IMG/VR virus record: IMGVR_UViG_3300020446_001735
Location: 1-38,429 of that record
Length of the DNA stretch: 38,429 nt
From: a virus
Direction: 5' to 3' (one strand)
Part shown: piece after piece, positions 4,986-32,503 of the stretch
Position numbering within the stretch: the first letter of the stretch is position 1
Layout of the letters: every line of letters begins with the position of its first letter
Notes under the pieces: model-generated
Database searches by the model: none
Told to the model about the DNA's origin: nothing
Seen by the model: only the letters and a program-made list of their open reading frames with translations
Made by a program: the position numbers and the translations under genes

Positions 4986-5924
4986 ATGTCAAACGACTTC
5001 TTGTGGGTCGAGAAATATCGACCGCGCCGTATTGCTGACACTATCTTACCAGATAGTCTCAAGCAAGTTTTTCAAAAAATCGTGGATGGTGGGGAGTTGC
5101 CTAACATGCTCCTCACCGGCACGGCTGGTCTAGGCAAAACAACAGTTGCACGTGCTTTGTGCGATGAGTTAAGCTTAGACTATATTGTTATCAATGGTTC
5201 CGAAGAAGGTAACATTGATACACTACGTGGCAAAATCAAACAATTTGCCAGTTCTGTCTCGCTACAAGGCGGATACAAAGTTGTCATCCTTGACGAGGCT
5301 GATTATCTAAATCCTCAATCTACACAGCCGGCTCTTCGTGGTTTTATCGAAGAGTTTGCAAATAACTGTAGGTTTATTCTTACTTGTAATTTTAAGAATC
5401 GTATTATTGAACCACTTCATTCTCGTTGTGGTGTCTATGAATTCAATACGAGTAAAAAAGATCTTGCGCCACTCGCTGCGCAGTTTATGAAACGTTGCCA
5501 ACATGTTCTTGAAGAAGAAGGCGTAGGCTATGATCAAATGGCAGTTGCTGATTTGATTATGAAGTATGCGCCTGATTGGAGGAGAGTACTTAATGAGCTT
5601 CAAAGATATTCTGTCACAGGTCATATTAGTGATGCAGTGGTTAATCGTAATCGTAGCGACAATTTTTCTGATCTATTTGCACATCTAAAAGGTAAAGACT
5701 TTAAGAAGATGCGGCAATGGGTTGCTAATAATATTGACACTGATGCCTCAGCTATTTTCAGAGGTATCTACGATAGAATGCTTGATCATATTCAACCGCA
5801 TTCTATTCCACAGTTGGTTCTTATACTAGCTGACTACCAATATAAGAATGCATTTGTTGCTGACCATGAACTAAATGTGGTAGCATGCATGACTGAGATT
5901 ATGGCCAATGTTGAATTTAATTAG
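4986..5924 (+). CDS. 44: clamp loader large subunit, AAA+ ATPase (gp44)
   Basis: The 312-residue protein has N-terminal WVEKYRPRR, Walker A GTAGLGKTT (45-53), Walker B ILDEAD (101-106) and an HSRC arginine-finger motif, all typical of RFC-like clamp loaders. T4 gp44 has 319 residues and works as a 4:1 complex with gp62 to open gp45 onto primer ends. The start overlaps nothing and has its own promoter. The next gene starts inside its last codons. Unusually, gene 62 does not follow directly: two foreign-looking genes lie in between. Confidence 0.95.
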   Translation: MSNDFLWVEKYRPRRIADTILPDSLKQVFQKIVDGGELPNMLLTGTAGLGKTTVARALCDELSLDYIVINGSEEGNIDTLRGKIKQFASSVSLQGGYKVVILDEADYLNPQSTQPALRGFIEEFANNCRFILTCNFKNRIIEPLHSRCGVYEFNTSKKDLAPLAAQFMKRCQHVLEEEGVGYDQMAVADLIMKYAPDWRRVLNELQRYSVTGHISDAVVNRNRSDNFSDLFAHLKGKDFKKMRQWVANNIDTDASAIFRGIYDRMLDHIQPHSIPQLVLILADYQYKNAFVADHELNVVACMTEIMANVEFN

Positions 5925-6297
5925 ATTACTTAATGTTGACTGGTTGATTCGTATCCCGTTATCAATTGTATTTTTACAGCAAGGAGTTAGTAAACTTCCA
6001 TTCAGTGCAGAAGACGCAGCATCTTTTGATTTGCCTGTTCTTGTATGGTTTTTTGTTGTGGCTGGAGAAATAGGAGCTGGAATAGGATTAATTGTAGGTG
6101 GTCTTATTCAAAAACTTTGGAATGGTATTGCTGATATTATAACCAGGTTTAGCGGATTTACAATAGGTTGTATTATGACCGGTGTAATATGGATTAGTCA
6201 GCCGGAAAACTTAATAGATGTTTTGTTGTACGATAACTTACATGTATTTCTTTGGGTTGGCGGGTTATTCTTTGCACTAAAGGGGAATCGTAAATGA
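5908..6297 (+). CDS. DoxX-like integral membrane protein
   Basis: The 129-residue protein has four hydrophobic segments (about residues 10-25, 44-66, 82-97 and 107-123). The first is followed by LQQGVSKL and the second contains [14 protein letters not shown], which resemble the DoxX family of four-helix inner-membrane proteins. DoxX proteins are linked to quinone or thiol redox chemistry in bacteria, but the role here is unknown. It overlaps the end of gene 44 by 17 bases and the start of guaC by 4, so the pair was probably gained together or is at least co-translated. Confidence 0.6.
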
Positions 6298-7412
6298 GAA
6301 TTGAAGAAGACGTAAAATTAGATTATAATGACGTGCTTTTCAGACCGAAAAGATCTACACTTGTTTCCAGAAAAGATGTAGATTTAGATCGTCACTATGA
6401 ATTTGCTAATGGAGAAAAATTTTATAACATCCCAATCATGGCTGCAAACATGGATGGTGTTGGTACATTTGAAATGGCGGATGCTTTGGCTAAGCTAGGC
6501 TTATTTACATGCCTACTTAAATCTTATACCGTTGCGCAATATGTAGATTTCTTTGACACAGATGACAAATGGATAGAAGTACATAAGCTCAATAGACAAC
6601 ACTGTACTGCGTATACTATGGGAATCAGCGATGAAGATCATCAAAAGTTTCGTATGGTATATGAACAAGCACCACAAATCAAATATGTCTGTATTGATGT
6701 GGCGAATGGATACACACAAAGGTTTGCTGAATTTGTAAAACAATTTAGAGATCTTTATCCAAAGATTGTTATCATTGCTGGTAATGTCTGTACAGCAGAC
6801 GCAACTCAAGAATTAATTTTAAATGGAGCAGATATTGTTAAAGTTGGTATTGGACCAGGATCTGTTTGCACTACGCGTATTCAAACGGGTGTTGGTTATC
6901 CTCAGCTTAGTGCTGTTATCGAGTGTGCTGATGCAGCGCATGGCCTCGGAGGTTTTATTATTGCTGATGGCGGTTGCAACTCTGCCGGCGATGTCGCTAA
7001 AGCATTTGGCGCTGGGGCTGACTTCGTTATGCTTGGTGGGATGCTTGCTGGCCACGATGAAGGAGGTGGAGAGATAATTACGAAGTACTTCTCGACCGGT
7101 GAACAGTGGTTCGATAAAAAGAATGAAACGTATAATCCTGTAATTACTAATGACAAGTTTGTACAATTCTACGGAATGAGTTCTGACACAGCGAATGAAA
7201 AACATTTTGGCGGTTTGAAAAATTACCGATCTTCAGAAGGTCGCGATGTTCAAGTTCCATATCGCGGCGGTATAAATAGAACAGTGCAAGATATCCTAGG
7301 TGGTTTACGCTCAACTTGTACATATGTTGGTGCGGCTGGTCTTAAGCAGTTAAGTAAATGCACCACCTTTATTCGTTGTAATGATACTCATAATCGAGTC
7401 TTTGAAAAATGA
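6294..7412 (+). CDS. guaC: GMP reductase
   Basis: The 372-residue TIM-barrel protein starts [20 protein letters not shown], very close to bacterial GuaC (E. coli [20 protein letters not shown]). It has the catalytic-cysteine loop GPGSVCTTR (C192), [14 protein letters not shown] and the GMP reductase-type YRSSEG plus [15 protein letters not shown] near the end. There is no CBS insertion, which argues against IMP dehydrogenase. The enzyme reduces GMP to IMP with NADPH. In a phage it could move guanine nucleotides from degraded host RNA toward adenine nucleotides for an AT-rich genome (inference). It sits between clamp-loader genes 44 and 62, overlapping both neighbours by 4 bases. Confidence 0.93.
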
Positions 7413-9164: not shown

Positions 9165-9632
9165 ATGACTGGCACTTTTACGTTCCCACGCGGAGCATTC
9201 GTTGGCTTTGATCACATTGCGAAAGACTTAGAACGTCTTGCACATGCACACCAAAAAGATCATTATCCGCCACATAATGTAGTCAAGCACAATGATGACG
9301 AGTTTCTTATTGAACTCGCTGTCGTTGGATTCAAAGAAAAAGATATCGATATCACGATGCATGATGGTATTCTAACTGTCAAAGGCGATCGTGAGTCACG
9401 TCGAGATCAAAATCTTTATGTCCATAAAGGTATCAGTGGTAGAAAATTCGAGAGGTCATTTAGACTCTCCGAATTTGTAGAAGTCACTGGAGCTGATCTT
9501 GAAGATGGATTGCTTACAATTCACTTGGAGCGAATCATCCCCGAAGAGAAGCGTCCTCGTAAAATTCTAATTGGAAACTACGAGGAAAAAAATGGCAACA
9601 GCAATTCTCAACTACTCACAGAGTCTGATTGA
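9165..9632 (+). CDS. hsp20: small heat-shock protein, Hsp20 family
   Basis: The 155-residue protein has an alpha-crystallin domain at about residues 36-130, with ELAVVGFKEKDIDITMHDGILTV, a KFERSFRL strand and the ADLEDGLLTIHL strand, where canonical members have A.(Y/L)..G.L.I. Small heat-shock proteins hold unfolding proteins, and Hsp20 genes are common in marine T4-like phages. GAGG lies eight bases before the ATG. The last 41 bases overlap the next gene. Other chaperones are not seen in the window. Confidence 0.93.
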   Translation: MTGTFTFPRGAFVGFDHIAKDLERLAHAHQKDHYPPHNVVKHNDDEFLIELAVVGFKEKDIDITMHDGILTVKGDRESRRDQNLYVHKGISGRKFERSFRLSEFVEVTGADLEDGLLTIHLERIIPEEKRPRKILIGNYEEKNGNSNSQLLTESD

Positions 9633-9834: not shown

Positions 9835-9980
9835 TTAAGATGTTCAAACGAATCTTTAGCTTACGTCCTTCGATGTCATGGCAACAAAGAGAAATAGAAA
9901 GATATCTTGCTAACTCGACTGATCATTTTGACTTAGAATGTCGTCAAAAAGATATCATTTACGGAAGGAAAAATTTATGA
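9831..9980 (+). CDS. DUF3563-like small protein
   Basis: The 49-residue product starts in an ATGA overlap and ends overlapping the pseudoazurin ATG. After a basic amphipathic head (KMFKRIFSLRPS) comes EIERYLANSTDHFDLECRQKDI. This resembles DUF3563, a short proteobacterial and phage family with the pattern EEAYLAQAxDxxDLExR. The function of the family is unknown. The assignment rests on this pattern. Confidence 0.65.
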   Translation: MIKMFKRIFSLRPSMSWQQREIERYLANSTDHFDLECRQKDIIYGRKNL

Positions 9981-10411
9981 AAACATTAGCATTTTATCTA
10001 TCAGCATTTGCAGTTATCTTTGCAGTTAGTTCTGCATCAGCAGCTGATCTTACTATTGATATGCTGAATAAAGATGCAGATGGTAACAAAATGGTTTATT
10101 CGAATGAATTGGCTAGAGTAGAAGTAGGTGAAACTATCACTTGGTTACCAGCTTCGAAAGGTCACAATGTCGAATGGATTGCAGGACCTGATGGAGCAGA
10201 TCTTCCTAAAAAGTCTAAGAATGGCAAAGAAGTTTCTATGACTTTTGAAGTACCTGGCATCTATTACTATTGGTGCACACCACATAAAGGCATGGGCATG
10301 ATTGGTCTTGTCGTAGTCGGTGGCGACGTATCTAATAAAGATGCAATTGCTAAAGCAAAAGCCTTAGGTAAATCAAAGAAGAAGCTAAAGGCTCTCTTAG
10401 GAGAACTTTAA
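9977..10411 (+). CDS. pseudoazurin, secreted type-1 copper protein
   Basis: The 144-residue precursor has a signal peptide ending SASA (cleavage after A22). The mature part of 122 residues matches bacterial pseudoazurins (about 123): MLNKDADGNKMV, KGHNVEW and CTPHKGMGMIG. The type-1 copper ligands are H63, C100, H103 and M108, with the family spacing C-x2-H-x4-M. The C-terminal Lys-rich helices after VVVGG are also present. Pseudoazurins shuttle electrons in the periplasm, for example to nitrite or nitrous oxide reductases. In a phage it could redirect host respiration (inference). The start overlaps the upstream DUF3563-like gene and has ACGGAAGGA before the ATG. Confidence 0.93.
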   Translation: MKTLAFYLSAFAVIFAVSSASAADLTIDMLNKDADGNKMVYSNELARVEVGETITWLPASKGHNVEWIAGPDGADLPKKSKNGKEVSMTFEVPGIYYYWCTPHKGMGMIGLVVVGGDVSNKDAIAKAKALGKSKKKLKALLGEL

Positions 10412-14126: not shown

Positions 14127-14621
14127 ATGAATAAACATAAGAATGATTTACGTAAAGGTCCAAACGCAAATGGATATGATGGAGATGTGACATGGGATAT
14201 GAGAGTAATGGGTGATTGGGTAAATGACATGTACCAAATGCATGAAAAGTATGGCGTACATGAGTGGATTGAAAACAACAAAGACAACACTGAGTTGATG
14301 GCTCAGTTTCTTGAGTTTCGTCTTAACTTTCTTCAAGAAGAATTAAATGAAACACGAGCAGCAGCATTGATAGATAAAGATCCGGAAGAAATTGTGGATG
14401 GTCTTATTGATCTTTGCGTTATTGCTATCGGTACTTTGGATGCTTTCAACGTTGCAGCACATGATGCGTGGCAAGAAGTTCTCAAAGCAAACATGTCCAA
14501 AGAAGTTGGTGTTAAAGAAACACGTCCTAATCCACTAGGACTTCCAGATCTAATTAAGCCAGAAGGTTGGCAAGGTCCATCACACAGAGGTAATCATGGC
14601 TATCTCGGGAACGCTGTTTAA
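14127..14621 (+). CDS. MazG-like all-alpha NTP pyrophosphatase
   Basis: The 164-residue protein has the core of the all-alpha NTP-pyrophosphatase superfamily: FLQEELNET (E71, E72, E75) and DPEEIVDGLIDL (E88, D91, D95), the EExxE and ExxD metal sites, in a bundle of helices. This superfamily includes MazG, HisE and the T4 dCTPase-dUTPase gp56. Given the dCMP hydroxymethylase nearby, it could hydrolyse dCTP/dUTP as gp56 does, but that is inference. No in-frame ATG with a ribosome site follows, so the leaderless ATG is chosen. It overlaps the next gene by 26 bases. Confidence 0.78.
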   Translation: MNKHKNDLRKGPNANGYDGDVTWDMRVMGDWVNDMYQMHEKYGVHEWIENNKDNTELMAQFLEFRLNFLQEELNETRAAALIDKDPEEIVDGLIDLCVIAIGTLDAFNVAAHDAWQEVLKANMSKEVGVKETRPNPLGLPDLIKPEGWQGPSHRGNHGYLGNAV

Positions 14622-15525
14622 AAGTATCTTTGATAATAAGACTAATCGTCGTGTGGATCTTCAAGATTTTGACGCGTTCGAAAAAGTGTTATATAATCTT
14701 GCCGAAGTGCCTAGGCAAGATAAGAAAGATGCTGAGTTAATATCACCGGCTGTTTATCATCCAGACACAACACGTGCAAATAAGAACGTGGTTGAATGGG
14801 CTGGTTGGTGTGCAGTCGATGTAGATGACTTTAAGTTTGAAGGAGATTTAAAGAATGAATTGGTTAATCGGTTTAGTGCTTATCGCTGGATTTGCTATTC
14901 TACTGCAAGCAGCACGAGTACTTCGCCAAAGTTTCGTCTTGTCTTCCCGCTTAGACATGCAGTTCGGTCCGAGCGGATCAAATCTTTCTGGTATGCTCTC
15001 CAAACTGAGCTTGGCGAGCTCGGAGACAAACAAACTAAAGACTTGTCACGTATGTATTACATCCCTGGAAAGTACGCTGGTGCTGATAATTTCATATTTA
15101 GTTATCATCATGGTGACGCTATCGATCCAGATGTTTTAATGAATAAGCATCCTATGGCAGAAAAATCTGGTAACTCTTTCTTTGATCGACTACCAGAAAA
15201 AATGCAGAAAGAAATTATTGAACATCGTAAGTCCAGATTGGAAAACACTGATGTCTACTGGTCATCATATCGTGATTGTCCATTCTTTCCTCGTCAACTT
15301 GAGAATGAATACAAACTAATTAGTAGTACTGGCTGGTATCATAAAATGTATCAGATCATGGTAGCTCTAGCCGGTAATGCTATTAAGAAAGAATATCCTA
15401 TCACAGCCGATGAGATTGCTGTGCTATGTCGTGAGTTCGATGCTGATACTGGTAATTGGTATGCTAATCGTCCAATGCAAACCGAAGCTGATCGCGCTCT
15501 AGAATATGTTTACAAAAATATGTAA
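14596..15525 (+). CDS. archaeo-eukaryotic primase-like replication protein
   Basis: The N-terminal half resembles the primase-polymerase domain seen in VapE-type and phage replication proteins. WCAVDVDDF carries the paired catalytic aspartates (near residues 74-77), YSTASSTSTSPKFRLVFPL occupies the place of the usual YSTHSHTPxxPRFRLVxPL, and DLSRMYYIPG matches the DxSRxxYxPG motif. The normal catalytic histidine of the second motif is missing. The C-terminal half (about 200-309) is helical and unassigned. It may be a primase variant or an inactive relative; the family itself is a moderate-confidence call. AGAGG precedes the ATG. Confidence 0.55.
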   Translation: MAISGTLFKSIFDNKTNRRVDLQDFDAFEKVLYNLAEVPRQDKKDAELISPAVYHPDTTRANKNVVEWAGWCAVDVDDFKFEGDLKNELVNRFSAYRWICYSTASSTSTSPKFRLVFPLRHAVRSERIKSFWYALQTELGELGDKQTKDLSRMYYIPGKYAGADNFIFSYHHGDAIDPDVLMNKHPMAEKSGNSFFDRLPEKMQKEIIEHRKSRLENTDVYWSSYRDCPFFPRQLENEYKLISSTGWYHKMYQIMVALAGNAIKKEYPITADEIAVLCREFDADTGNWYANRPMQTEADRALEYVYKNM

Positions 15526-15527
15526 TT

Positions 15528-15537
15528 AAATGCATTT
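15528..15537. repeat. AAATGCATTT upstream element, copy 1
   Basis: This perfect 10-bp palindrome lies 5 bases upstream of a TTTACT -35 box. Identical palindromes precede the promoters at 26065 and 29969. Confidence 0.65.
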
Positions 15538-15542
15538 TATGG

Positions 15543-15570
15543 TTTACTTTTTCTCTCGTTGTGGTATAAT
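15543..15570 (+). promoter_or_regulatory. promoter with extended -10 and palindromic upstream element
   Basis: TTTACT (15543-15548), a 16-base spacer ending TGG, and TATAAT (15565-15570). The predicted start, 15577, is the A of an in-frame ATG, and a second ATG with a GAGGAG ribosome site lies at 15601. Confidence 0.8.
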
Positions 15571-15600
15571 ATATACATGATTAGAAAAGAGGAGTCAATC

Positions 15601-15867
15601 ATGTACGTAGATCTTAAAAATCTTATCAACCATTGGAACACTATTGCTAAAGAAGATTGGGCGATTGAAGGTGACATGTCTAGCATGTATATCGCCGACG
15701 CCAACGATGCACAAAATGTTCTTGATTTTCTTCAGCATGAGAATATTGAAGGCGCAATGTCTATGATTAATCGCATGGACACTGCTCCTCGTGAATCTGT
15801 TGTAATGGCTATCTATGCTGATACCAATAGCAACTTTGTTCGTGATCTTGGTTGGGAGGTTGCGTAA
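15601..15867 (+). CDS. small hypothetical protein
   Basis: The 88-residue product starts at 15601 behind AAGAGGAGTC. An in-frame ATG at 15577, exactly at the predicted transcript start, would add eight residues. The protein is mostly helical and acidic (DANDAQNVLDFLQHENIEGAMSMINRM), with no membrane segment. It belongs to one of three units with the same promoter and leader design (see 26124 and 30029), although the three proteins do not look alike. The function is unknown. Confidence 0.72.
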   Translation: MYVDLKNLINHWNTIAKEDWAIEGDMSSMYIADANDAQNVLDFLQHENIEGAMSMINRMDTAPRESVVMAIYADTNSNFVRDLGWEVA

Positions 15868-15995
15868 TGACTATAACTGAAGAACAACTCCAAGCAAAAG
15901 CTTGGACTATCCATCAATGGATGGAGCGTAATCGCGATATCCCTTGGGTCCGTAGAGTCGGTGAGATCTGGCTCGCAAATCTGTGGAGAAGATAA
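15867..15995 (+). CDS. 42-residue Trp-rich hypothetical protein
   Basis: ATG overlaps the previous TAA and the TAA overlaps the next ATG. The product has five tryptophans and is basic toward the C-terminus (VRRVGEIWLANLWRR), suggesting an amphipathic helix that could bind membrane or nucleic acid. No family is recognised. The overlaps at both ends are the main evidence that it is a gene. Confidence 0.62.
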   Translation: MTITEEQLQAKAWTIHQWMERNRDIPWVRRVGEIWLANLWRR

Positions 15996-16351
15996 TGTCG
16001 AAAGAAAGTCTAAAGTTTCTGCAACGTGCCGCAGAAATACAAAACAAAAAGGGTAATGATTATCAGAACCCTAACTCACGCGTTCGTCAAGCAATGTACT
16101 ATCCTCGTGGTTGTGCTACTATTCTAGACACAATGCAAGCTAAAATTCTTCGTATGCAATCTGTGCTCGAAGCAATGGAGTCCGATCCAAGTTATCAACC
16201 TAACTTTGAATCGCTAGAAGATTCCTGTCTCGATATCATTAACTATGCTTCTTTCTTTGCTGCGTATATGAATGGTGGTATTGATGGCCAGCATCCGGAT
16301 CATGACTTCCTTAATCGTCCGAAGAAAGTAGTCAACAATGAAGGTGAGTAA
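15995..16351 (+). CDS. DUF1599-like protein (nucleotide modification associated domain 1)
   Basis: The 118-residue protein has KKGNDYQNPN near the start, a KILRM helix and EDSCLDIINYASFFAAY, matching the pattern of DUF1599, where K.xDY, KxxR and ExxxDxxxY are conserved. DUF1599 has been linked by gene context to modified-nucleotide synthesis in phages, hence its other name. Here it directly precedes dCMP hydroxymethylase and overlaps its start by 14 bases, which fits. The biochemical function is not established. Confidence 0.65.
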   Translation: MSKESLKFLQRAAEIQNKKGNDYQNPNSRVRQAMYYPRGCATILDTMQAKILRMQSVLEAMESDPSYQPNFESLEDSCLDIINYASFFAAYMNGGIDGQHPDHDFLNRPKKVVNNEGE

Positions 16352-17033
16352 TATCAGGGAGTATTTCATCAATGAACTTCAAAATGAAAACTTCACGGTG
16401 GACCGATCAGGACAAAAAACTATTGAGCTCATCGGTGCATCCTTTGAAGCCGACGAACCGTCGATCTTCGGGACTGTCAATCAAGGCTATGTTGATGCTG
16501 AGCTTGCTTGGTATAAGTCTATGTCTACTAACATATATGATATACGACCTGAAGCAGAACCTCCAGCAGCTTGGAAATATAGTGCAAACGAACATGGAGA
16601 TATTAACAGTAATTACGGAAAACTAATTTACTCCGATAAATACTATGGCCAATATCACCAGGCACTCGATGAGTTACTTCGTAATATGGATTCTCGTCGT
16701 GCCACTATGATTTACACACGTCCTTCTATCTGGACAGAATATGATGAACATGGTAAAAACGATTTCATATGTACTAATGCTGTCACTTATTATATACGCA
16801 ATGGCGCAATCCACGCTGTGGTCCAAATGCGTTCAAACGATGTTGTGTACGGATACAAAAATGACTATGCTTGGCAGCTTCATGTTCTAAAAGATTTTGT
16901 AGACGATTACAACGCATGTTACCTTGATGGTGCCTGGGACGCCGACTATCGTAGAGAAATGGAAGTCGGCACTATCACATGGCAAGTACAAAATCTTCAC
17001 GTATATGAAAGGCACTTCGATCTTGTCAAGTAA
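16338..17033 (+). CDS. 42: deoxycytidylate 5-hydroxymethylase (gp42)
   Basis: The 231-residue thymidylate-synthase fold enzyme matches T4 gp42 (246) segment by segment: IELIGASFEADEPSIFG, DINSNYGKLI, DSRRATMIYTRPS, FICTNAVTYYIR, MRSNDVVYGYKNDYAW and LHVYERHFDLV. C145 is the catalytic cysteine (T4 C148). D176 aligns with T4 D179, the residue that selects dCMP where thymidylate synthases have Asn. It makes 5-hydroxymethyl-dCMP from dCMP and methylene-tetrahydrofolate. The phage DNA is therefore expected to contain 5-hydroxymethylcytosine or a derivative. A folate-independent gap in dTMP supply is covered by thyX at 25377. Confidence 0.96.
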   Translation: MKVSNIREYFINELQNENFTVDRSGQKTIELIGASFEADEPSIFGTVNQGYVDAELAWYKSMSTNIYDIRPEAEPPAAWKYSANEHGDINSNYGKLIYSDKYYGQYHQALDELLRNMDSRRATMIYTRPSIWTEYDEHGKNDFICTNAVTYYIRNGAIHAVVQMRSNDVVYGYKNDYAWQLHVLKDFVDDYNACYLDGAWDADYRREMEVGTITWQVQNLHVYERHFDLVK

Positions 17034-17463
17034 ATGGGATACAAGATTTCTAATCCTTGCAAAGGAAGTTGCGTCTTGGTCGAAAGATCCATCACGCCAG
17101 ATCGGTGCAGTATGCGTTGACAATCGCACAGTCATTGCAACCGGCTATAATGGGTTTCCTCGAGGAATAGAAGATAATCCTTTACTTTACGAGAATCGTG
17201 ATATAAAATATAAGTACGTTGTTCATGCTGAAATGAACGCTATCTTTAATGCTACATATAATGGCGTGTGTTTGGATGGAGCAACGTTATACGTATATGG
17301 CTTACCAGTTTGTTCTGATTGTGCTAAAGGCGTAATTCAAGTTGGTATTAGTCGTGTAGTCATGCCTCAGCAAGAAATTCCAGATCACTGGACTGAGTCA
17401 TGGAGTTTAACACAGTCGATGTTCGACGAAGCAGGTATTCAATGGGAGTTTATCGATGCCTAA
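17005..17463 (+). CDS. cd: dCMP deaminase
   Basis: The 152-residue zinc deaminase has HAEMNAI (H74, E76) and PVCSDC (C103, C106), with SKWDTRFLILAKEVASWSKDPSRQIGAV typical of the deoxycytidylate deaminase family. It converts dCMP to dUMP, feeding thymidylate synthesis by ThyX and competing with gp42 for dCMP. The ATG at 17005 lies inside the end of gene 42 without a clear ribosome site; a TTG at 17023 is an alternative that would begin LSSKWD. An ATG at 17034 is out of frame. Confidence 0.92.
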   Translation: MKGTSILSSKWDTRFLILAKEVASWSKDPSRQIGAVCVDNRTVIATGYNGFPRGIEDNPLLYENRDIKYKYVVHAEMNAIFNATYNGVCLDGATLYVYGLPVCSDCAKGVIQVGISRVVMPQQEIPDHWTESWSLTQSMFDEAGIQWEFIDA

Positions 17464-17614
17464 GACTCAAGAATGGATTAAACAAAAAATGGCAGAAGAG
17501 TCTGTTACCTATTGGACAGAAATGAAATTGACCGAAGAGGTGAAAGAACTAAAAGAAAGAATGAAAAAACTCGAAATCGATATTGCTCACCTTTTGCGAA
17601 AAGCAAATGGATAA
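17456..17614 (+). CDS. 52-residue coiled-coil protein
   Basis: ATG at 17456 overlaps the deaminase end, and the stop overlaps the next gene start. The product is a charged helix (about residues 20-48, with heptad-like spacing through LTEEVKELKERMKKLEIDIAHLL). It may be a small oligomerising adaptor. The family is unknown. It is too short to judge further. Confidence 0.62.
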   Translation: MPKTQEWIKQKMAEESVTYWTEMKLTEEVKELKERMKKLEIDIAHLLRKANG

Positions 17615-17993
17615 AGTATTAGTAATAGGTCACAGCCCTTCCTCGAAAGAATACTGTCCGAGGAAGGGCAATCCTACTCACAATCGTCTCAACCGTTGGT
17701 TAGATGACTGTGGTGTGGAAATATACAGCTTTACTAATGCGTGTGCACACCGTGCGACTTCACTAAAGTTAACTGATATTGATAGAACATTTTTACATGA
17801 AGTAGTAAAAGGCTATAATAAAATTCTATCATTAGGCAATGACGTGAATAATATTCTAACAAAGATGGAGATCGAGCATTACGCACTCCCTCATCCATCT
17901 CCACTAAACAGAAAGTTTAATGACAAAGCGTACGAACCGAAAATCATAAATAACTTAAAATCGTATTTACAAATAGACTCAACTGTTGTATAA
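17607..17993 (+). CDS. uracil-DNA glycosylase superfamily-like protein
   Basis: The 128-residue protein has VLVIGHSPSS (G8-S12), the NxC/H strand SFTNAC (N44), ILSLGNDV (about 73-80) and LPHPSPLNRKF (HPSPLN at 96-101). These correspond in order to the GxxPS, N, and HPSPL elements of the uracil-DNA glycosylase superfamily. It is shorter than usual members (about 190-230), so one or more peripheral helices are missing. It lies between dCMP deaminase and the DNA glycosyltransferase, so it could act on uracil or on a modified base; the substrate is unknown. The stop overlaps the next promoter. Confidence 0.68.
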   Translation: MDKVLVIGHSPSSKEYCPRKGNPTHNRLNRWLDDCGVEIYSFTNACAHRATSLKLTDIDRTFLHEVVKGYNKILSLGNDVNNILTKMEIEHYALPHPSPLNRKFNDKAYEPKIINNLKSYLQIDSTVV

Positions 17994-17994
17994 T
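17966..17994 (+). promoter_or_regulatory. promoter for the sugar-modification operon
   Basis: TTTACA (17966-17971) and TATAAT (17989-17994) are 17 bases apart. The start is predicted at about 18001, with AAGGAGAG in a 15-base leader. The downstream genes to 22210 overlap or nearly abut, so they form one unit. Confidence 0.85.
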
Positions 17995-18015
17995 AGTTAG
18001 AGTAAGGAGAGAAAT

Positions 18016-19254
18016 ATGAAAACGATTATCCTACTCGGTCGTGGGACCGAAGGCTGCGGCGTTACACAATGCGCTATCCAAATGCAAAAAGTAACCGGAG
18101 CCACTATCCTCTCAGCAAATGATAAGAAGTGGGGAAGAGCCAAAGGCCTCGACCTTCAGCAGACAGAAATGTCTGTTGGTAAAGAATGGGAAGAGATGGC
18201 AAACATTGTTAATCAGCACGATGTTTGTATCGTATATTCTGTTCCTTCTAAATCACATCCTCAAGATTGTCAAGATAATTTTCCAAAACTGTTGGAAGCA
18301 ATCACAATACGTAAAGCATTTATCAATGTAGACCACAAGGCTGCATCGATTGCACGTAATGCAAACCTTGTCGAGGTTTGTAAAAAGATGGACGTGATTA
18401 TGACTCATAGTCTGGAGAATGACTTCTCTCGATTTATGAAGAAAAACAAAATCCTTGTACCACTCAAGAAGATGGGACTTGGATTTGATTATGATGGTCA
18501 TAGAGCAAAATACTGGAAAGGTATCCACACACAACAAAGAAGTATGGTGCGTTGGATTGGCCGAACAGCTATGTGGAAAGGTCCGGCTCTTATGATTGAC
18601 TACCATCAGGACGCTTTGATGGATGCTGAATTTATTACAGTCCTTGAAGGATTGGAAGCGTCAATCCAATATCCACTCGTGTTATATCGTGACAATAAGG
18701 AAGAAACACCTACGGATCGTCGTAAGGTTGTTAATTACTTTCGTCCAGAAAAACAACACGGTGAAACACAAAAGTTTTTGCCAGAATTTTATGGCACAGA
18801 AAAAGTAGGAAATGGTGCATACCTTTATCCTCAATATATAAATGAAGATTGTATGAATAGAATGTCACGTTCTGCTTTTGGCGCAGATCTATATCATCTG
18901 AAAGCAGAAACCTATGGAAACAATATTGAGAACTGTCATGCAGAAATCATTGCATCTGGCGCAGTACCAATTTTTCATAAACACTTCTGTGATAACGTCA
19001 TACATAAAAAACAGGGTAAGCCAGTAACCCTGTGTAAAGATACTGGTACAATCGGTCTTGATTATTCTAACTTTGAAGAATGTAAGGAAGTCATGATCAA
19101 ACTTAAAAACGATCCTGCGATGAGAGATGATTGGCGTGAAATGGCGTTTGAATTTTGGAAGCAACACTCAGATGGTGAGATGGTTGTAGGTGAAATTATG
19201 GAATTGGCCACAAGCGACGAACACCAACCACAAGGACTCGAGGAGTTTTTCTAA
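18016..19254 (+). CDS. DNA glycosyltransferase, T4 alpha-glucosyltransferase-like
   Basis: The 412-residue protein matches T4 alpha-glucosyltransferase (400) along its length: N-terminal GRGTEGCGVT (T4 ARGLEGCGVT), DHKAASIARNANL, RWIGRTAMWKG (T4 RWIGRTTTWKG) and YINEDCMNRMSRSAFG. T4 AGT moves glucose from UDP-glucose to hydroxymethylcytosine in DNA. Here two sugar-nucleotide enzymes follow directly, so the sugar may be different. The C-terminus GLEEFF resembles the clamp-binding tail of gp43 (LDEFFA) in this window; T4 AGT has been reported to bind gp45. It overlaps the next gene by one base. Confidence 0.88.
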   Translation: MKTIILLGRGTEGCGVTQCAIQMQKVTGATILSANDKKWGRAKGLDLQQTEMSVGKEWEEMANIVNQHDVCIVYSVPSKSHPQDCQDNFPKLLEAITIRKAFINVDHKAASIARNANLVEVCKKMDVIMTHSLENDFSRFMKKNKILVPLKKMGLGFDYDGHRAKYWKGIHTQQRSMVRWIGRTAMWKGPALMIDYHQDALMDAEFITVLEGLEASIQYPLVLYRDNKEETPTDRRKVVNYFRPEKQHGETQKFLPEFYGTEKVGNGAYLYPQYINEDCMNRMSRSAFGADLYHLKAETYGNNIENCHAEIIASGAVPIFHKHFCDNVIHKKQGKPVTLCKDTGTIGLDYSNFEECKEVMIKLKNDPAMRDDWREMAFEFWKQHSDGEMVVGEIMELATSDEHQPQGLEEFF

Positions 19255-20201
19255 TGAAAACTATTTTTATCACCGGTATTTCCGGCATGATTGGTTACCA
19301 CTCAGCCAAAATGTATAATCAACTTGGGTGGAAAGTAACAGGCATCGATGATTTTAATAATTATTACGATGTCAAACTCAAAGGTGCGCGTGAAGCAATC
19401 CTTAATGGCATCGGCATCAGTGTGATTGACGGTTCTATTCAAGATCCAGAATCATATCGCGATATCATGGCTGAAGCTGATGTTGTACTTCATCTTGCAG
19501 CATATGCAAATCCTAGGCATGCTATGGATGAGCCTCAGCTTTACATTGACACGAATATCACTGGTACGCAACGTCTTCTAGAAATTGCAGAACAGCATGA
19601 TATTCCAGTTGTATACGCATCAAGCTCGTGTGTAATGCATGGACAAGAACTTCCATGGAACGAACATGATGCTAACGGCCATCAGAATAATCCTTATGGC
19701 TGGTCTAAGTATGTCAACGAATGTCAATTTAAATATAGCAAGTTGTCTAAATCAACTGGCCTTCGCTTCTTTACTGTGTATGGTCCGTATGGTCGACCAG
19801 ACATGGCGCTGTTTAAATTTACAGATGCGATTGTAAAAGGCGAAAAGCTTACACTGTATAATTACGGCAACATGATTCGTGACTTTACATACGTAGAAGA
19901 TATTGTACAAGGCATCACACTGGTTGTAGATCAAATTCTAGATCCGGAACATGATGGTCATGAGCTTTATAATATTGGATATGGCGAACAAGTTAATCTC
20001 ATGGATTTTGTTGAGGCAATTGAAAATGAGCTTGGTCGTAAAGGTGAGTATGATCTGGTACCAGCACACCCGGCTGACGTACCGGCAACTTGGTCTGACA
20101 CTAGTAAACTTCAGAAGCTTGGATATAAACCTACTACACCAATCAGCGAAGGTGTAAAGCATTTTGTATCTTGGTACAAGGAGTACTACAATGTCAATTA
20201 A
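19254..20201 (+). CDS. nucleotide-sugar epimerase, UDP-glucuronate 4-epimerase-like
   Basis: This 315-residue extended SDR has GISGMIG (8-14), ASSS (122-125) and Y148-x3-K152. Family hallmarks FNNYYDVKLKGAR and GLRFFTVYGPYGRPDMA are those of UDP-glucuronate 4-epimerases (UDP-GlcA to UDP-GalA). UDP-xylose synthases have a different N-terminal pattern. UDP-glucose 4-epimerase activity cannot be excluded from motifs alone. It sits between the DNA glycosyltransferase and a UDP-glucose dehydrogenase, which supports a UDP-glucose to UDP-GlcA to UDP-GalA route. It overlaps the next gene by 11 bases. Confidence 0.85.
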   Translation: MKTIFITGISGMIGYHSAKMYNQLGWKVTGIDDFNNYYDVKLKGAREAILNGIGISVIDGSIQDPESYRDIMAEADVVLHLAAYANPRHAMDEPQLYIDTNITGTQRLLEIAEQHDIPVVYASSSCVMHGQELPWNEHDANGHQNNPYGWSKYVNECQFKYSKLSKSTGLRFFTVYGPYGRPDMALFKFTDAIVKGEKLTLYNYGNMIRDFTYVEDIVQGITLVVDQILDPEHDGHELYNIGYGEQVNLMDFVEAIENELGRKGEYDLVPAHPADVPATWSDTSKLQKLGYKPTTPISEGVKHFVSWYKEYYNVN

Positions 20202-21018
20202 GAAGATTGCTATCATTGGACATGGCTATGTAGGGAAAGCTGTAGATCATGGCTTTTCCACATCGCATGTTGAAAAGTTTTTGGTGGATCCAATTTATGG
20301 TTCTACCATTGGTGATCTTAAACTTAAAACTCGTTTGGACGCAGCATTTGTTTGCGTTCCGACACCATTCGGAGATGATGGAAGTATTGATGCCTCGATT
20401 GTAAAAGAAGTTGTGACAGAGCTTCAATACTTTAATTGTCCTATTATCATCAAGTCGACAGTGACTCCTGATATTGTAAGTGAACTTTATAATGAAGACT
20501 CGAATGTTGTTTACAATCCGGAGTTTCTAACCGAAGCAAATGCTCTTGATGATTTTATTAATCCTTCTATGCATATCTTTGGAGGTAACATTATGATTAC
20601 TCGTAGAGTTCAAGAACTTTACGAAAATCACAGTCAGTGTCGTCCTTGTCCTGTCAGGCATATGACTCCTGCTGAAGCGAGCTTTGTTAAGTATGGAATC
20701 AATAGTTTTCTAGCTACAAAAGTTCTATGGTTCAACCAATTTAAAGATGTGGTGGATCAACATGATTCAAAATACAATGTGGTTGTAAATGCCATGAGCA
20801 TGGATCCACGTATTTCTACTTCGCATATGCAGGTGCCAGGACCTGATGGTAAAAAAGGATTTGGCGGAGCATGCTTCCCCAAAGACACTAACGCCTTTTC
20901 TACTTTCTCTCAAAATGCTTTCACTGTTCTAGATGAAGTGATTAGTGCCAATAATACATATAGAAAAGAATATGATCTAGACCACAGAGAAATTGAACAG
21001 AAAGTAAATTATGGCTAA
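20191..21018 (+). CDS. minimal UDP-glucose 6-dehydrogenase
   Basis: The 275-residue protein has the UGD signatures in order: GHGYVG (10-15), FVCVPTP (53-59), STVTP (89-93), NPEFLTEANALDDF (109-122), FVKYGINSF with K167 and N171, and GGACFPKD with catalytic C228. It ends about 30 residues after that cysteine, so the whole C-terminal UDP-binding domain (about 130 residues in usual 390-450 residue enzymes) is absent, and the N-terminal Rossmann part is shortened too. All core catalytic residues remain. AAGGAG precedes the ATG, which lies inside the epimerase end. The product would be UDP-glucuronate. Confidence 0.85.
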   Translation: MSIKKIAIIGHGYVGKAVDHGFSTSHVEKFLVDPIYGSTIGDLKLKTRLDAAFVCVPTPFGDDGSIDASIVKEVVTELQYFNCPIIIKSTVTPDIVSELYNEDSNVVYNPEFLTEANALDDFINPSMHIFGGNIMITRRVQELYENHSQCRPCPVRHMTPAEASFVKYGINSFLATKVLWFNQFKDVVDQHDSKYNVVVNAMSMDPRISTSHMQVPGPDGKKGFGGACFPKDTNAFSTFSQNAFTVLDEVISANNTYRKEYDLDHREIEQKVNYG

Positions 21019-22210
21019 CTACGCAAGTATTGTTCCTCTAATCGGAGGAGAAACAATAGCAATGCAAAATGTATTCGGGTCTCGGCCCGAATACATTCTG
21101 TCTTACGAAGGATTTGAAAACAATGATCAACACTTGGTGGAATACTATAAGAGAGAAGTTCCCTACCATCTTATTCAAGGTGATTCTTTACCTCAGGTTG
21201 AGTCTGTTGATGTCATTAATACTGTTTGCCCTTGCGCTGGGCTTAGCAGTCTTAGTGTCACAAGCTCTTCTGACGCTGCTGCTAATGATTGGATGCGTAC
21301 CAGTGCTCGTCATGTACTCGGTCATCTACGGCCCAAGGTCTTTTGGGGAGAAAATGCACCACGACTTGCTTCAAAAATGGGAGAACCAGTCGTGGAAGAT
21401 CTTCGAAAGATCGGAAGAGAAAATGGCTACACTTTTAGCATCTTTAAAACAAAAAGTATCCTTCATGGATTATCTCAAGTAAGAGATCGTACTTTTTATT
21501 TTTTCTGGAAAGGCGAAAAGGTACCACAATTTGAATATATAAAACGTGAGCATGAAACGATCGAGGATACGATTCGCTCCGTGAAGCGGGATCCAAGTGA
21601 TCCAATGAACATCCTAACGTCTGATCGTGCTCCGTCACAAGATCCATATTATAGGTACGTTCTCGAAGAAATGGAGAACGGCATTAATCACAGCGCGTTT
21701 CAAGATAAACTTGAAAAAAGCTATGATGTGAAGCACTACATTGAAGACAATGGAGTTACCTATGACAAAGTATCTAAATGGATGTCAAAGCATGGCTACG
21801 AGAAACAAGCTTCTCGTTGTATGGACATGTATCATAAATTAAAGAGTGGTGGTAATATTATGCGTCGTGGTGTCAATATTCCAAAAGGCTACATTGGAGC
21901 TTTTGTTGGCGCATATCCTATGACACTGACTCATCCGGATGAAGATAGATTTCTAACATTGAGAGAATGCTTATCAATTATGAAACTGCCTGAAGATTTT
22001 ATTCTTCAAGGTGGACTAAAAAATATCAATCACATCTGTCAGAACGTGCCAGTAACGACAGCACAGGACATGGCAGATCATGTACTTCGTTATGTTGATG
22101 GAAGATTAGATAACCAACTAATCGATACCGATTATCTCGTACAAGACAACAAGTCTCAAACGCTTTCTTATGAAAAAGAGAGTGTACAACTTGACGCATT
22201 TATGGTATAA
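21011..22210 (+). CDS. cytosine-C5 DNA methyltransferase homologue
   Basis: The 399-residue protein keeps the C5-methyltransferase motifs CPCAGLS (motif IV, catalytic C75), GENAPR (motif VI) and QVRDRTFYFF (motif VIII). Motif I, normally DLFAGxGG, is replaced by IVPLIGGET, so cofactor binding may be altered. There is a long central target-recognition region (about 190-290) and a C-terminal motif IX/X part. It ends VQLDAFMV, similar to the gp43 clamp tail. The ATG at 21011 overlaps UGD; an ATG at 21062 behind GGAGGAG would remove motif I. Its substrate in a hydroxymethylcytosine phage is unclear. Confidence 0.82.
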   Translation: MANYASIVPLIGGETIAMQNVFGSRPEYILSYEGFENNDQHLVEYYKREVPYHLIQGDSLPQVESVDVINTVCPCAGLSSLSVTSSSDAAANDWMRTSARHVLGHLRPKVFWGENAPRLASKMGEPVVEDLRKIGRENGYTFSIFKTKSILHGLSQVRDRTFYFFWKGEKVPQFEYIKREHETIEDTIRSVKRDPSDPMNILTSDRAPSQDPYYRYVLEEMENGINHSAFQDKLEKSYDVKHYIEDNGVTYDKVSKWMSKHGYEKQASRCMDMYHKLKSGGNIMRRGVNIPKGYIGAFVGAYPMTLTHPDEDRFLTLRECLSIMKLPEDFILQGGLKNINHICQNVPVTTAQDMADHVLRYVDGRLDNQLIDTDYLVQDNKSQTLSYEKESVQLDAFMV

Positions 22211-22235: not shown

Positions 22236-23273
22236 ATGAGTATTATGGATAAATTGAAGAAGAATAGTAAAGTCAAAGAAACTTCTATTCTTTCTGATTC
22301 GAAATTCTTTACCGAAAAAGATATGGTAAAGACCGAAGTGCCAATGATTAACGTGGCATTATCGGGTTCCGTGGATGGCGGACTTGCGCCAGGACTGACA
22401 GTTTTAGCTGGCCCATCCAAACACTTCAAAACATCATTCGCTTTGATTATGGCATCAGCATATCTCAAAGAAAACGAAGATGCTGTGCTTCTATTCTATG
22501 ATTCAGAGTTTGGTTCACCGCAATCATACTTTGAAAACTTTGATATCGATACAAGCCGTGTTCTTCACACGCCAATCACAAACGTTGAAGAACTAAAGTT
22601 TGATATCATTGCACAGTTAGAAGGCATTGAACGCAATGATAAGGTTGTCATTGTAATTGACTCGGTCGGTAACCTCGCATCTAAAAAAGAATTGGAAGAT
22701 GCCATTAATGAAAAGTCCGTTGCCGATATGTCAAGAGCAAAAGCTCTCAAAGGTTTGTTCCGCATGTGTACTCCGTACTTGAACATGAAGAACATTCCTT
22801 TGATTGCTGTCAACCATACATATATGGAAATCGGGTTATTCCCCAAAGCAATTGTGTCAGGTGGTACTGGCATTTACTACAGCGCTGATAACATATGGAT
22901 TTTAGGCAGACAACAAGATAAGCAAGGCACTGAAATCAAAGGCTACCACTTTGTTATCAACGTGGAGAAATCACGCTATGTTAAAGAAAAGTCTAAGATT
23001 CCCATCAGTGTTAGCTGGGAAGGTGGAGTACAAAAGTGGTCTGGCCTGCTTGATGTTGCTCTCCAAGGTCAATATGTCGCTAAGCCGTCTAATGGCTGGT
23101 ATTGCAGGGTTAGCCGGGAAACTGGGGAATTACTTGAACCGAAAGTACGAGAGAAACAAACCTTAGAAGAAGAGTTTTGGAAACCAATCTTTGAAGAAAC
23201 AGACTTTAAAGATTATCTCAAAAATCGATTTTCAATTCTAAATGAAAGAGGCATTGAAGATGTCGCAGAATGA
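22236..23273 (+). CDS. uvsX: RecA-like recombination protein UvsX
   Basis: The 345-residue protein has Walker A GPSKHFKTS (59-67, the unusual T4-type P-loop), Walker B VVIVIDSVGNL (near 132-142) and the VNHTY strand, with a C-terminal acidic tail. T4 UvsX has 391 residues. It forms filaments on single-stranded DNA and drives strand invasion for recombination-dependent replication, working with 46/47. TTTAGGAGAG precedes the ATG. A small membrane-protein gene begins in its last five codons. Confidence 0.95.
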   Translation: MSIMDKLKKNSKVKETSILSDSKFFTEKDMVKTEVPMINVALSGSVDGGLAPGLTVLAGPSKHFKTSFALIMASAYLKENEDAVLLFYDSEFGSPQSYFENFDIDTSRVLHTPITNVEELKFDIIAQLEGIERNDKVVIVIDSVGNLASKKELEDAINEKSVADMSRAKALKGLFRMCTPYLNMKNIPLIAVNHTYMEIGLFPKAIVSGGTGIYYSADNIWILGRQQDKQGTEIKGYHFVINVEKSRYVKEKSKIPISVSWEGGVQKWSGLLDVALQGQYVAKPSNGWYCRVSRETGELLEPKVREKQTLEEEFWKPIFEETDFKDYLKNRFSILNERGIEDVAE

Positions 23274-25223: not shown

Positions 25224-25396
25224 AGGTAGATCTTTATGGCAAGGAATTAAATCAGGTCGGTTGGGGACACGACCGAGGAGGTGGAGACGAATGGTGGAGT
25301 CACTATTGCAAAAAGCAAGACGATGTTATGAGTTTTCAGAAAGGTGTAGAATGTGATTGGTGTGGAGAAGTAGAAGATGAAAGTAAATCTGATTAG
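25220..25396 (+). CDS. 58-residue protein with a possible zinc knuckle
   Basis: ATG overlaps the helicase stop. The product is Gly/Trp-rich (GWGHDRGGGDEWWSHYC) with C30, and C44 and C47 in VECDWCGEVE, plus several histidines, which may bind one zinc ion. Its last 20 bases overlap thyX. The family is not recognised. Confidence 0.65.
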   Translation: MKVDLYGKELNQVGWGHDRGGGDEWWSHYCKKQDDVMSFQKGVECDWCGEVEDESKSD

Positions 25397-26045
25397 TTAT
25401 TCGCATCCTCATTTTGTAGTTCAAGCAGTTGACGGAGAATTAAGTGCTCAAGATCTCATCGCGTATTGCGCCCGTGTATCCAATCCAGCGAACCAACATA
25501 ACAAAGAAACGTCAGAAAGGCTACTTGCCTATTTGGCAAAAGAAAAACACTGGTCACCATTCGAAATGGTATCTGCTTGCTTAGAGATTGAAACTACACG
25601 AGATATCGCTAGGCAAATTCTAAGACATAGGTCATTTTCATTTCAAGAATTTTCCCAAAGGTATGCTGAGCAAACAGAGTTTAATAATTATAGAGAAGCT
25701 CGCATGCAGGATCATAAGAACCGGCAGAATAGTATTGAAACTGAAGATCCTGACGTAAAACTCGAATGGTTGAAAAAACAATCTGAAGTTGCACTTGCTG
25801 TTAGAGATTCATATGAATGGGCATTGGAAAATGGTATTGCAAAAGAACAAGCTCGAGCCGTATTGCCTGAAGGTATGACGAAATCTACAATGTATATGAA
25901 TGGAACTCTCAGGTCTTGGATGCATTACATCGAACTGAGATCTGGCAATGGAACTCAGAAAGAACATAGAGAAGTGGCTATTGCTTGTGCTGAGGCTCTA
26001 AAGGAGATCTTTCCTATTATCGAAACTTTTATTGAAAAAAATTAA
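25377..26045 (+). CDS. thyX: flavin-dependent thymidylate synthase
   Basis: The 222-residue protein carries the ThyX signature RHRSFSFQEFSQRYA (83-97) and a C-terminal RSGNGTQKEHREVA region, typical of the family. ThyX makes dTMP from dUMP using FAD and NADPH and is common in alphaproteobacteria and their phages. It completes the route dCMP to dUMP to dTMP begun by dCMP deaminase. Its presence frees the thymidylate-synthase-fold protein gp42 to be the hydroxymethylase. The ATG lies within the previous small gene, behind TGGAGAAG. Confidence 0.95.
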   Translation: MKVNLISYSHPHFVVQAVDGELSAQDLIAYCARVSNPANQHNKETSERLLAYLAKEKHWSPFEMVSACLEIETTRDIARQILRHRSFSFQEFSQRYAEQTEFNNYREARMQDHKNRQNSIETEDPDVKLEWLKKQSEVALAVRDSYEWALENGIAKEQARAVLPEGMTKSTMYMNGTLRSWMHYIELRSGNGTQKEHREVAIACAEALKEIFPIIETFIEKN

Positions 26046-27436: not shown

Positions 27437-27656
27437 AAATTTCTATTCCACTCCCTGCATTAATATATTTAGGCAAGCAATAGGCTGTAGCTCTATCGCG
27501 TTTATCCATCGCTGCGTATGTCGAATATCTTTTCGATAATTCTTTTGCGAAGTAGTTACATCTGGTTACGCTACTAAAATACATATCGTTTGATACTAGA
27601 CGTCTATCATCGCCTACACCAATGTAAAGCATTAGTAGAAATACGTGTATCATCAC
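27429..27656 (-). CDS. hypothetical protein of marine T4-like phages
   Basis: The 75-residue product has a short hydrophobic N-terminus (HVFLLMLYIGVG), then SNDMYFSSVTRCNYFAKELSKRY and a DRATAYCLPKYI tail with two cysteines. I associate this pattern with an uncharacterised family in marine T4-like phages. It could be exported. It overlaps the IscA-like gene start-to-stop in the minus-strand operon. Confidence 0.72.
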   Translation of the reverse strand: MMIHVFLLMLYIGVGDDRRLVSNDMYFSSVTRCNYFAKELSKRYSTYAAMDKRDRATAYCLPKYINAGSGIEIYD

Positions 27657-27958
27657 ACTGCAAAACTTTCACCACATCCACATGATGCAGTTGCATTAGG
27701 ATTAACCACTTTTAGGTATGAACCACCTAACTCACTTACGTAATCGATAGTACAGCCGGCCACAAACATTTCTGCCATAGGATCTAGAACTAGAACATTT
27801 TCGTATGGCTCACTCCAATCAACATCAGGCCAGTTCTTTTTAAAATCCCAAACATATTGAAAACCAGAACAGCCACCACCTTTCACACCTAACGTTACGT
27901 AATCATTTTGTCTAACTTTATCTAAGTATTCAACTGCACTGCTTGTAATATCAATCAT
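27653..27958 (-). CDS. IscA/ErpA-type iron-sulfur carrier
   Basis: The 101-residue HesB-fold protein carries the three conserved cysteines of A-type carriers: C30 in GGGCSGFQY and C93, C95 in SCGCGESF. These proteins hand Fe-S clusters to apo-enzymes, and A-type carriers occur in marine T4-like phages. It lies within the minus-strand operon whose promoter looks late, so it may act in virion or tail assembly rather than early metabolism (inference). It overlaps both neighbours by 4 bases. Confidence 0.92.
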   Translation of the reverse strand: MIDITSSAVEYLDKVRQNDYVTLGVKGGGCSGFQYVWDFKKNWPDVDWSEPYENVLVLDPMAEMFVAGCTIDYVSELGGSYLKVVNPNATASCGCGESFAV

Positions 27959-32035: not shown

Positions 32036-32503
32036 ATGGATGCACTCTGGAAAAAGGTAAGGAAAATGGATCTAGGCAATCCCGTAATTACAACAATCGT
32101 AGGACTAGTTATTTTCTACATTGGGCTTAAAACTTTCTCAGGTGGTATGAAATCTATGGGTAATATGGATCACCTTTCTTGGTTTACTGCCAACATATTT
32201 TATATGTTCATTGGCGGTATTGTGATGACATTGCTTTGGCAATCATCTTCACTATCAACTACAGCAATTATTGCACTGGTAGCATCTGGAGCTATTCCTC
32301 TACCAGCAGCGATTGCTGCAGTCCTTGGAGCAAACTTAGGAACAACCGGCACTATCTGGTTAGCTGGACTTTTGGTATCTGATGGTATGCCGAAAGGTGA
32401 TACACTACGAATAGCAATGGCACATACTGGTGTTAATCTACTTATGGCATTGTCTCTATTGCCCTTTGTACATCACATTGCAAAGTTTCTCTCGAAATTT
32501 TAA
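32036..32503 (+). CDS. Na/Pi cotransporter-like half-size membrane protein
   Basis: The 155-residue protein has about four membrane helices. It contains WQSSS (Q69-S72) followed by LVASGAIPLPAAIAAVLGANLGTT (GANLGTT at 98-104), the QSSS and GANIGTT motifs of the Na+/phosphate cotransporter II family (PF02690). Full proteins have two such inverted repeats; this is a single repeat, so it would have to dimerise or act on a host transporter. AATAGGAGA precedes the ATG, and TATAAATG at 32006 is a near-match to a late promoter. A strong terminator follows, making it a stand-alone unit. Confidence 0.8.
   Translation: MDALWKKVRKMDLGNPVITTIVGLVIFYIGLKTFSGGMKSMGNMDHLSWFTANIFYMFIGGIVMTLLWQSSSLSTTAIIALVASGAIPLPAAIAAVLGANLGTTGTIWLAGLLVSDGMPKGDTLRIAMAHTGVNLLMALSLLPFVHHIAKFLSKF

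Follow-up and report, generated by a model that had tools for sequence, protein, structure and literature searches.

The stretch of DNA analysed here (the window) is a whole viral contig of 38.4 kb, covering positions 1 to 38,429 of IMG/VR virus record IMGVR_UViG_3300020446_001735. Its replication genes, including a family B polymerase and UvsX, are T4-like, and the contig is taken to come from a marine T4-like phage. Between positions 14127 and 22210 lies a set of closely packed genes, all on one strand, which are predicted to make 5-hydroxymethylcytosine (hmC) and to decorate it with a sugar, probably a uronic acid (Table 1). A preliminary description of this DNA had proposed a complete pathway for sugar-decorated hmC at this site, and the presence of the genes that it named within one 8-kb stretch was confirmed by position, strand, and profile and structure matches. 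The primase-like gene, the UDG-superfamily gene, the gene with a C5-cytosine-methyltransferase (MTase) fold and the modularity of the locus were absent from that description.

Table 1. Predicted genes of the hmC decoration locus and its surroundings in the window.
Feature	Position	Strand	Matches
MazG/PRA-PH-type nucleotide pyrophosphohydrolase	14127..14621	+	Pfam PF01503 E 3.7e-7; phrog_671 E 3e-21
Primase-like protein, flanking	14596..15525	+	phrog_9765 E 3e-47
Small protein, weakly DUF1599/Nmad1-like	15983..16351	+	phrog_1485 E 2e-11; DUF1599 E 0.13, under cut-off
dCMP hydroxymethylase, gp42 type (predicted)	16338..17033	+	PDB 1b49 E 5.5e-66
dCMP deaminase	about 17005..17463	+	PF00383 E 1.2e-19; phrog_174 E 6e-43
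UDG-superfamily small protein	17583..17993	+	PF03167 E 2.7e-5, barely past cut-off
T4 AGT-family DNA glycosyltransferase (predicted), module gene 1	18016..19254	+	PF11440 E 1e-35; 1xv5 E 2.8e-44
UDP-glucuronate 4-epimerase-type SDR, module gene 2	19254..20201	+	5u4q E 4e-67; 6zl6 E 8e-32
UDP-glucose-dehydrogenase-like (UGD-like), module gene 3	20191..21018	+	PF03721/PF00984; UGD fold
C5-cytosine-methyltransferase-fold protein (predicted)	21011..22210	+	PF00145 E 3e-16; fold matches
UvsX/RecA-like recombinase, right-hand slot landmark	22236..23273	+	PF21134 E 3e-13
ThyX, flavin-dependent thymidylate synthase	25377..26045	+	PF02511 E 7.5e-44

The gp42-type protein shares 51% identity with T4 gp42 and scores 226 bits against the T4 deoxycytidine monophosphate (dCMP) hydroxymethylase 1b49, versus at most 35 bits against any thymidylate synthase (TS). 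Alignment with the T4 protein shows that it retains the catalytic Cys (DFICTN) and has an Asp replacing the Asn of TS (GYKND). An Asp in place of this Asn is the residue that selects dCMP over dUMP. The protein aligns throughout with T4 gp42, whereas RB69 ORF048c, which is of the 5-hydroxy-dCMP synthase type (PMC13390438), diverges. 5-Hydroxycytosine as the base, as in RB69, was ruled out, since the gp42-type protein groups with T4 and not with RB69 ORF048c. The gene is predicted to encode a T4-type dCMP hydroxymethylase, and because a separate ThyX can supply dTMP, it would be free to act on dCMP. The gp42 match, these residues and the separate ThyX bear out the earlier proposal of hmC as the base. 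A search for a TET oxygenase as the source of hmC, run without a positive control, gave no match in the window, in four relatives with the same sugar genes (type A), in cyanophage S-TIM5 or in Pseudoalteromonas phage XG4.

The genes around gp42 are less clearly assigned. The MazG-type protein had been described as a gp56-superfamily pyrophosphatase, an identity that was rejected as hidden Markov model and hhalign comparisons with T4 and RB69 gp56 gave no similarity; from its gene position it is a candidate dCTPase. The small protein described as DUF1599-like has a phrog_1485 match and resembles DUF1599 weakly, below significance, scoring 13.1 bits against a Pfam gathering cut-off of 25.

The AGT-family protein matches T4 AGT (1xv5) over both halves and retains the T4 catalytic and phosphate-binding residues. 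The residues D106-H107, R183, W187-K188 and E305 are invariant among its relatives. It is predicted to glycosylate DNA as a member of the T4 AGT family, whose known acceptor is hmC DNA. Cultured cyanophage S-TIM5 has an AGT together with a TS bearing the dCMP-marking Asp, and an AGT and a TS-family gene are also found on the divergent contig L089 (IMG/VR 3300044642_000273; 52 kb), which comes from a different phage type. That an AGT accompanies a TS-family gene even in these two supports transfer to hmC.

The best PDB match of the epimerase, a short-chain dehydrogenase/reductase (SDR), is 5u4q, which was deposited as a dTDP-glucose dehydratase, yet shares the motif RFFTVYGPxGRPDMA with it; the next is the characterised UDP-glucuronate (UDP-GlcA) 4-epimerase of B. 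cereus, 6zl6. The protein is full length, aligns to its end with UDP-sugar enzymes, and carries the motifs FTVYGPxGRPDMA, YxxxK and SSSC. In the characterised enzymes, Arg185 holds the carboxylate of UDP-galacturonate (UDP-GalA), and Glu at position 128 marks decarboxylases (PMC7984243, PMC12338863). At the carboxylate-binding set Thr/Ser126, Ser127, Ser128, Thr178 and Arg185 the phage protein has Ser, Ser, Cys, Thr and Arg, matching four of five, and the decarboxylase Glu is missing at position 128. This signature points to UDP-GlcA and UDP-GalA as the sugar nucleotides. The third gene product has the fold of UDP-glucose dehydrogenase (UGD) in a structure model (predicted local distance difference test, pLDDT, 93), with all top PDB fold matches being UGDs. 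Alignment with E. coli Ugd shows the catalytic T, E, K, N, C and D retained along with the NAD and central domains. It would be expected to work like UGD, while failing one defining feature of the family, discussed below.

The association of these three genes was examined by counting co-occurrence in independent IMG/VR contigs with AGT relatives, taking as denominators the contigs able to show each gene. The epimerase directly follows the AGT in 71 of 72 contigs. Of the other genes, a UGD-like one was present on the piece for 51 of 56, the MTase-like one for 44 of 45 and gp42 for 29 of 31. The AGT, epimerase and UGD genes overlap by a few bases, the epimerase start codon (19254) overlapping the AGT stop. 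The UGD gene is relocated upstream of gp42 in L038 and L087 and lies elsewhere on the contig in L056, but is kept in all three. That the genes overlap and occur together almost without exception in about 80 contigs, with UGD retained even when moved, suggests that the three form a functional unit, and such near-constant association in independent contigs indicates that the locus is not a product of chance. The position of sugar-nucleotide enzymes directly behind the transferase, as first described, holds across relatives. Phages that carry sugar-nucleotide genes of their own alongside a DNA transferase have precedents in RB69/NP, with arabinose genes (PMC13390438), and in Shewanella phage Thanatos, with a UDP-xylose pyrophosphorylase (PMC12838424). 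The pair of epimerase and short UGD recurs in phage C48C1 (45% and 44% identity), and C48C1-type pairs were found on about 80 further viral contigs.

The sugar genes occupy a slot between the dCMP deaminase gene and the MTase-like gene whose content varies among relatives. A search with the MTase-like gene gave 80 loci; the set in which the modules were counted, freed of duplicates, comprised 116 distinct contigs. Because near relatives of the queries are over-represented in it, little can be read from how often each module occurs, but that the modules exist does not depend on these proportions. Module A, found in 56 contigs, consists of AGT, epimerase and UGD (UGD lay on the piece in 50 and was absent from it in 5, and 1 had a T4-like AGT). 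Module B (20 contigs) pairs an AGT from a second clade with a short SDR, and module C (6 contigs) an unknown protein of 344–369 amino acids (aa), a UDP-galactopyranose mutase and a short SDR. Module D (16 contigs) contains an inositol-phosphate synthase, a HAD phosphatase-like protein, a 5-hydroxymethyldeoxyuridine (5-hmdU)-DNA-kinase-like protein and a transferase with weak similarity to T4 beta-glucosyltransferase (BGT). Module E (3 contigs) has a 412-aa protein and a nucleotidyltransferase/HAD protein, module F (2 contigs) a TET-associated-type glycosyltransferase (TAGT), and 13 of the 116 contigs were short fragments that were left unclassified. Transferase and sugar genes are exchanged together, while gp42 was found in 31 of the 32 surveyed contigs with 6.5 kb upstream. 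Judged by gene content, marine T4-like phages appear to swap the decoration on hmC.

Two further features of the slot were observed. In contigs L152, L162, L174, L180 and L184, the inositol-phosphate synthase, the 5-hmdU-DNA-kinase-like protein and an unknown transferase lie in the slot, and an inositol- or phosphate-based cytosine decoration is possible there. In several modules (L127, 5018-5770, and other contigs with modules B to E) the SDR has about 60 residues fewer than the epimerase of type A.

The MTase-like protein at the right end of the slot was modelled by AlphaFold2 (AF2) with a pLDDT of 85, and the best 50 PDB fold matches listed all belong to the C5-MTase superfamily. It retains the nucleophilic Cys (CPC), ENAP, QxRxR and QNVP of motifs IV, VI, VIII and X. 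Motif I reads IVPLIGG, versus LFAGIGG in Dcm and TFAGGGG in CmoX, with its Phe lost; the motif II acidic residue and the motif III Asp are not conserved, and the PF00145 match starts after motif I, leaving profile positions 1–28 unmatched. The model and motifs indicate a C5-cytosine-methyltransferase fold in which the DNA-acting residues are kept and the S-adenosylmethionine (AdoMet) signature is eroded. CmoX-like carboxymethylation was rejected, as the protein has CPC instead of SPPC and Asn345 instead of Arg350 (PMC12783734). Relatives among phage records occur in S-TIM5-group cyanophages, in XG4 and, remotely, in Bacillus phage G; XG4 carries a gp42-like gene about 5 kb from its MTase-like gene and gives no AGT match. 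Since the gene accompanies dCMP hydroxymethylase whichever sugar genes are present, and so tracks hmC rather than any one sugar, the protein probably acts on or reads hmC itself. More tentatively, it may no longer use AdoMet and may remove, activate or read the hydroxymethyl group of hmC at chosen sites, in phages with swappable decorations (uronic acid, galactofuranose-type, inositol/phosphate-type and others); we give this specific role less weight than its opposite.

The chemical steps, the donor and the linkage that we infer from the sequences are as follows. The gp42-type enzyme would make 5-hydroxymethyl-dCMP, which after phosphorylation would replace dCMP in new DNA, with the nucleotide pool shaped by dCMP deaminase and the MazG-type pyrophosphatase. 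The UGD-like protein would oxidise UDP-glucose at C6 to UDP-GlcA, and the epimerase would convert this at C4 to UDP-GalA. The AGT-family enzyme would then move the uronic acid, probably in alpha linkage, to hmC in DNA, giving negatively charged uronosyl-hmC. In type A, UDP-GalA (or UDP-GlcA) is the likeliest donor. The sugar genes make up one of the alternative modules that fill the slot from dCMP deaminase to the C5-MTase-fold gene. This reading follows from an epimerase nearest to UDP-GlcA 4-epimerases, with equivalents of Arg185 and Thr178 and no Glu128, and from the conserved catalytic residues of the UGD-like protein. We consider it fairly probable, though well short of certain, that the hmC of this phage is decorated with galacturonic or glucuronic acid and not with glucose.

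Several observations weigh against this reading. The C-terminal UDP-binding domain is missing from the UGD-like protein and all its relatives (270–333 aa), whereas the phage UGDs of SP-15, Kuja and S-SSM7 are full length; a short UGD is also found in a Campylobacter phage. Position 128 of the epimerase is an invariant Cys where characterised UDP-GlcA epimerases have Ser, MH stands in place of their YG, and its tree has long branches that do not place the family firmly. AGT conservation yielded no residue set that discriminates the donor, so that donor choice is not readable from it, and the second AGT clade, mostly without UGD nearby, carries the same motifs. Apart from the lack of a recognisable gp56, with the MazG-type protein showing no detectable relation to T4 or RB69 gp56, a search run without a positive control, covering the window, two large relatives, one contig of C48C1 type and S-TIM5, found no gp1-like dNMP (hm-dCMP) kinase. 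With neither gp56 nor gp1 recognised and no UDP-binding domain in the UGD-like protein, the pathway can no longer be called complete. As for a decoration other than glucosyl-hmC, the epimerase signature and a probable phage-supplied donor other than UDP-glucose agree with the earlier proposal, but the donor used by the AGT does not follow from its sequence.

The alternative that we take most seriously, while regarding it as unlikely, is plain glucosyl-hmC. As in T4, host UDP-glucose would then be the donor for the AGT, and the epimerase and UGD-like protein would act elsewhere, for instance by changing host surface polysaccharide or sugar-nucleotide pools. The T4 residues kept in the AGT would suit it, as would the divergent AGT of L089, perhaps a glucose-using relative, whose 52-kb contig has neither epimerase nor UGD; marine phages also commonly carry sugar-nucleotide genes. 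However, the overlapping and nearly invariant order of AGT, epimerase and UGD, together with the joint exchange of transferase and sugar genes at the slot, argues against it. It is improbable that glucose is added by the AGT and then oxidised while bound to DNA by the UGD-like protein, which the loss of its UDP-binding domain would free for this. The absence of that domain in all relatives, with the catalytic residues all kept, and the shorter SDRs of the other modules are consistent with such a route, whereas the full-length type A epimerase can be aligned right to its end with UDP-sugar enzymes; to our knowledge, there is no precedent for oxidation of a DNA-bound sugar by the UGD family.

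A pentose decoration like that of RB69 or Thanatos, with UDP-GlcA decarboxylated by the epimerase and arabinose or xylose placed on the DNA, is more improbable still. Pentosyl cytosines are known in T4-like phages, and mutation can turn UDP-GlcA epimerases into primitive decarboxylases (PMC12338863), but here the Glu of the decarboxylase position is absent and the UDP-GlcA epimerase signature kept, the gp42 belongs to the hmC type rather than to that making 5-hydroxy-dCMP, and no arabinose 5-phosphate isomerase or nucleotidyltransferase was found among the cluster genes. That the genes adjoin merely for convenient early expression, as the general nucleotide metabolism genes and the neighbouring primase and UvsX might suggest, is very improbable given their co-occurrence, the swapping of whole modules at one site and the hmC DNA acceptor of the AGT family.

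The locus with its putative uronic acid route has features in common with several known systems. With T4 hmC glucosylation (gp42, gp56, gp1 and AGT/BGT) it shares gp42-type hmC synthesis, dCMP deaminase and an AGT-family transferase, but adds sugar-nucleotide enzymes behind the AGT and a C5-MTase-fold gene, while gp56 and gp1 are not recognisable. Like the RB69/Mosigvirus phages with arabinosyl-cytosine (PMC13390438, PMC6024577), it belongs to a T4-like phage predicted to make its own activated sugar for cytosine; the RB69 type uses 5-hydroxy-dCMP synthase with isomerase, kinase and nucleotidyltransferase, whereas this locus has an hmC-type gp42 and the proposed UDP-hexuronate route. Thanatos, also T4-like, likewise has a phage sugar-nucleotide enzyme with its DNA modification, but this is a UDP-xylose pyrophosphorylase, and the deoxypentose is attached to cytosine via oxygen without a methylene (PMC12838424). 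Synechococcus phage S-B43 CmoX (5-carboxymethylcytosine; PMC12783734) is likewise a phage C5-MTase homologue with an altered DNA-modification role, but retains a pocket of the AdoMet type together with an Arg that serves the carboxyl, whereas the protein described here has Asn, no motif I Phe and no SPPC. Cyanophage S-TIM5 shares the AGT, a relative of the C5-MTase-like protein (30%) and a TS whose Asp is the one that selects dCMP; its genes, however, are scattered, and no epimerase–UGD pair is annotated behind its AGT.

The TET-bearing phage C48C1 has the closest epimerase/short-UGD pair and shares the idea of a sugar on the C5 hydroxymethyl group. It differs in having an oxygenase instead of gp42, with no TS-family match, in lacking an AGT, and in carrying an adenine-type methyltransferase near the pair. 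At 34584-38031 of C48C1 (L008), a TET, an unknown 344-aa protein (related to the phrog_14998-type protein of module C) and a UDP-galactopyranose mutase lie in a row, and a galactofuranosyl-type DNA decoration is possible.

Glycosylation of hmC and phage-made sugar nucleotides are already known. In the literature searched, which leaves most subscription journals outside, we found neither a uronic acid on hmC, galacturonosyl-hmC included, nor UGD with AGT in phages, nor a site where modules are exchanged next to a gene that has the C5-MTase fold but no AdoMet signature. If true, the uronic acid reading would bring a charged sugar into the range of T4-type hmC glycosylation. The exchange of whole decoration modules at one site would offer a ready explanation for how phages evade restriction enzymes or defences that recognise particular modified cytosines. 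The locus also draws attention to an unexplained gene, with an MTase fold and no intact AdoMet signature, which accompanies hmC irrespective of the sugar. Parts of this reading are testable now in the cultured phages S-TIM5 and XG4.

Other genes on the contig were also noted. The UDG-superfamily protein has a PHPSxxNR motif invariant across 25 relatives, and the proteins at the same position in relatives fall into two divergent clades (about 70–80% and about 30% identity). On the other side of the slot, the UvsX/RecA-like gene comes after the MTase-like gene in relatives too. A plastocyanin/azurin-family copper protein is encoded at 9938-10411 (PF00127, E 6e-17), near Hsp20 (9165-9632), and an IMP dehydrogenase/GMP reductase-family gene (6294-7412; PF00478, E 3e-72) follows a DoxX-like membrane protein (5908-6297). 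Two auxiliary metabolic genes were also identified, a short Na+/phosphate cotransporter piece at 32036-32503 (PF02690) and an A-type iron-sulphur cluster protein at 27653-27958 on the minus strand (PF01521).

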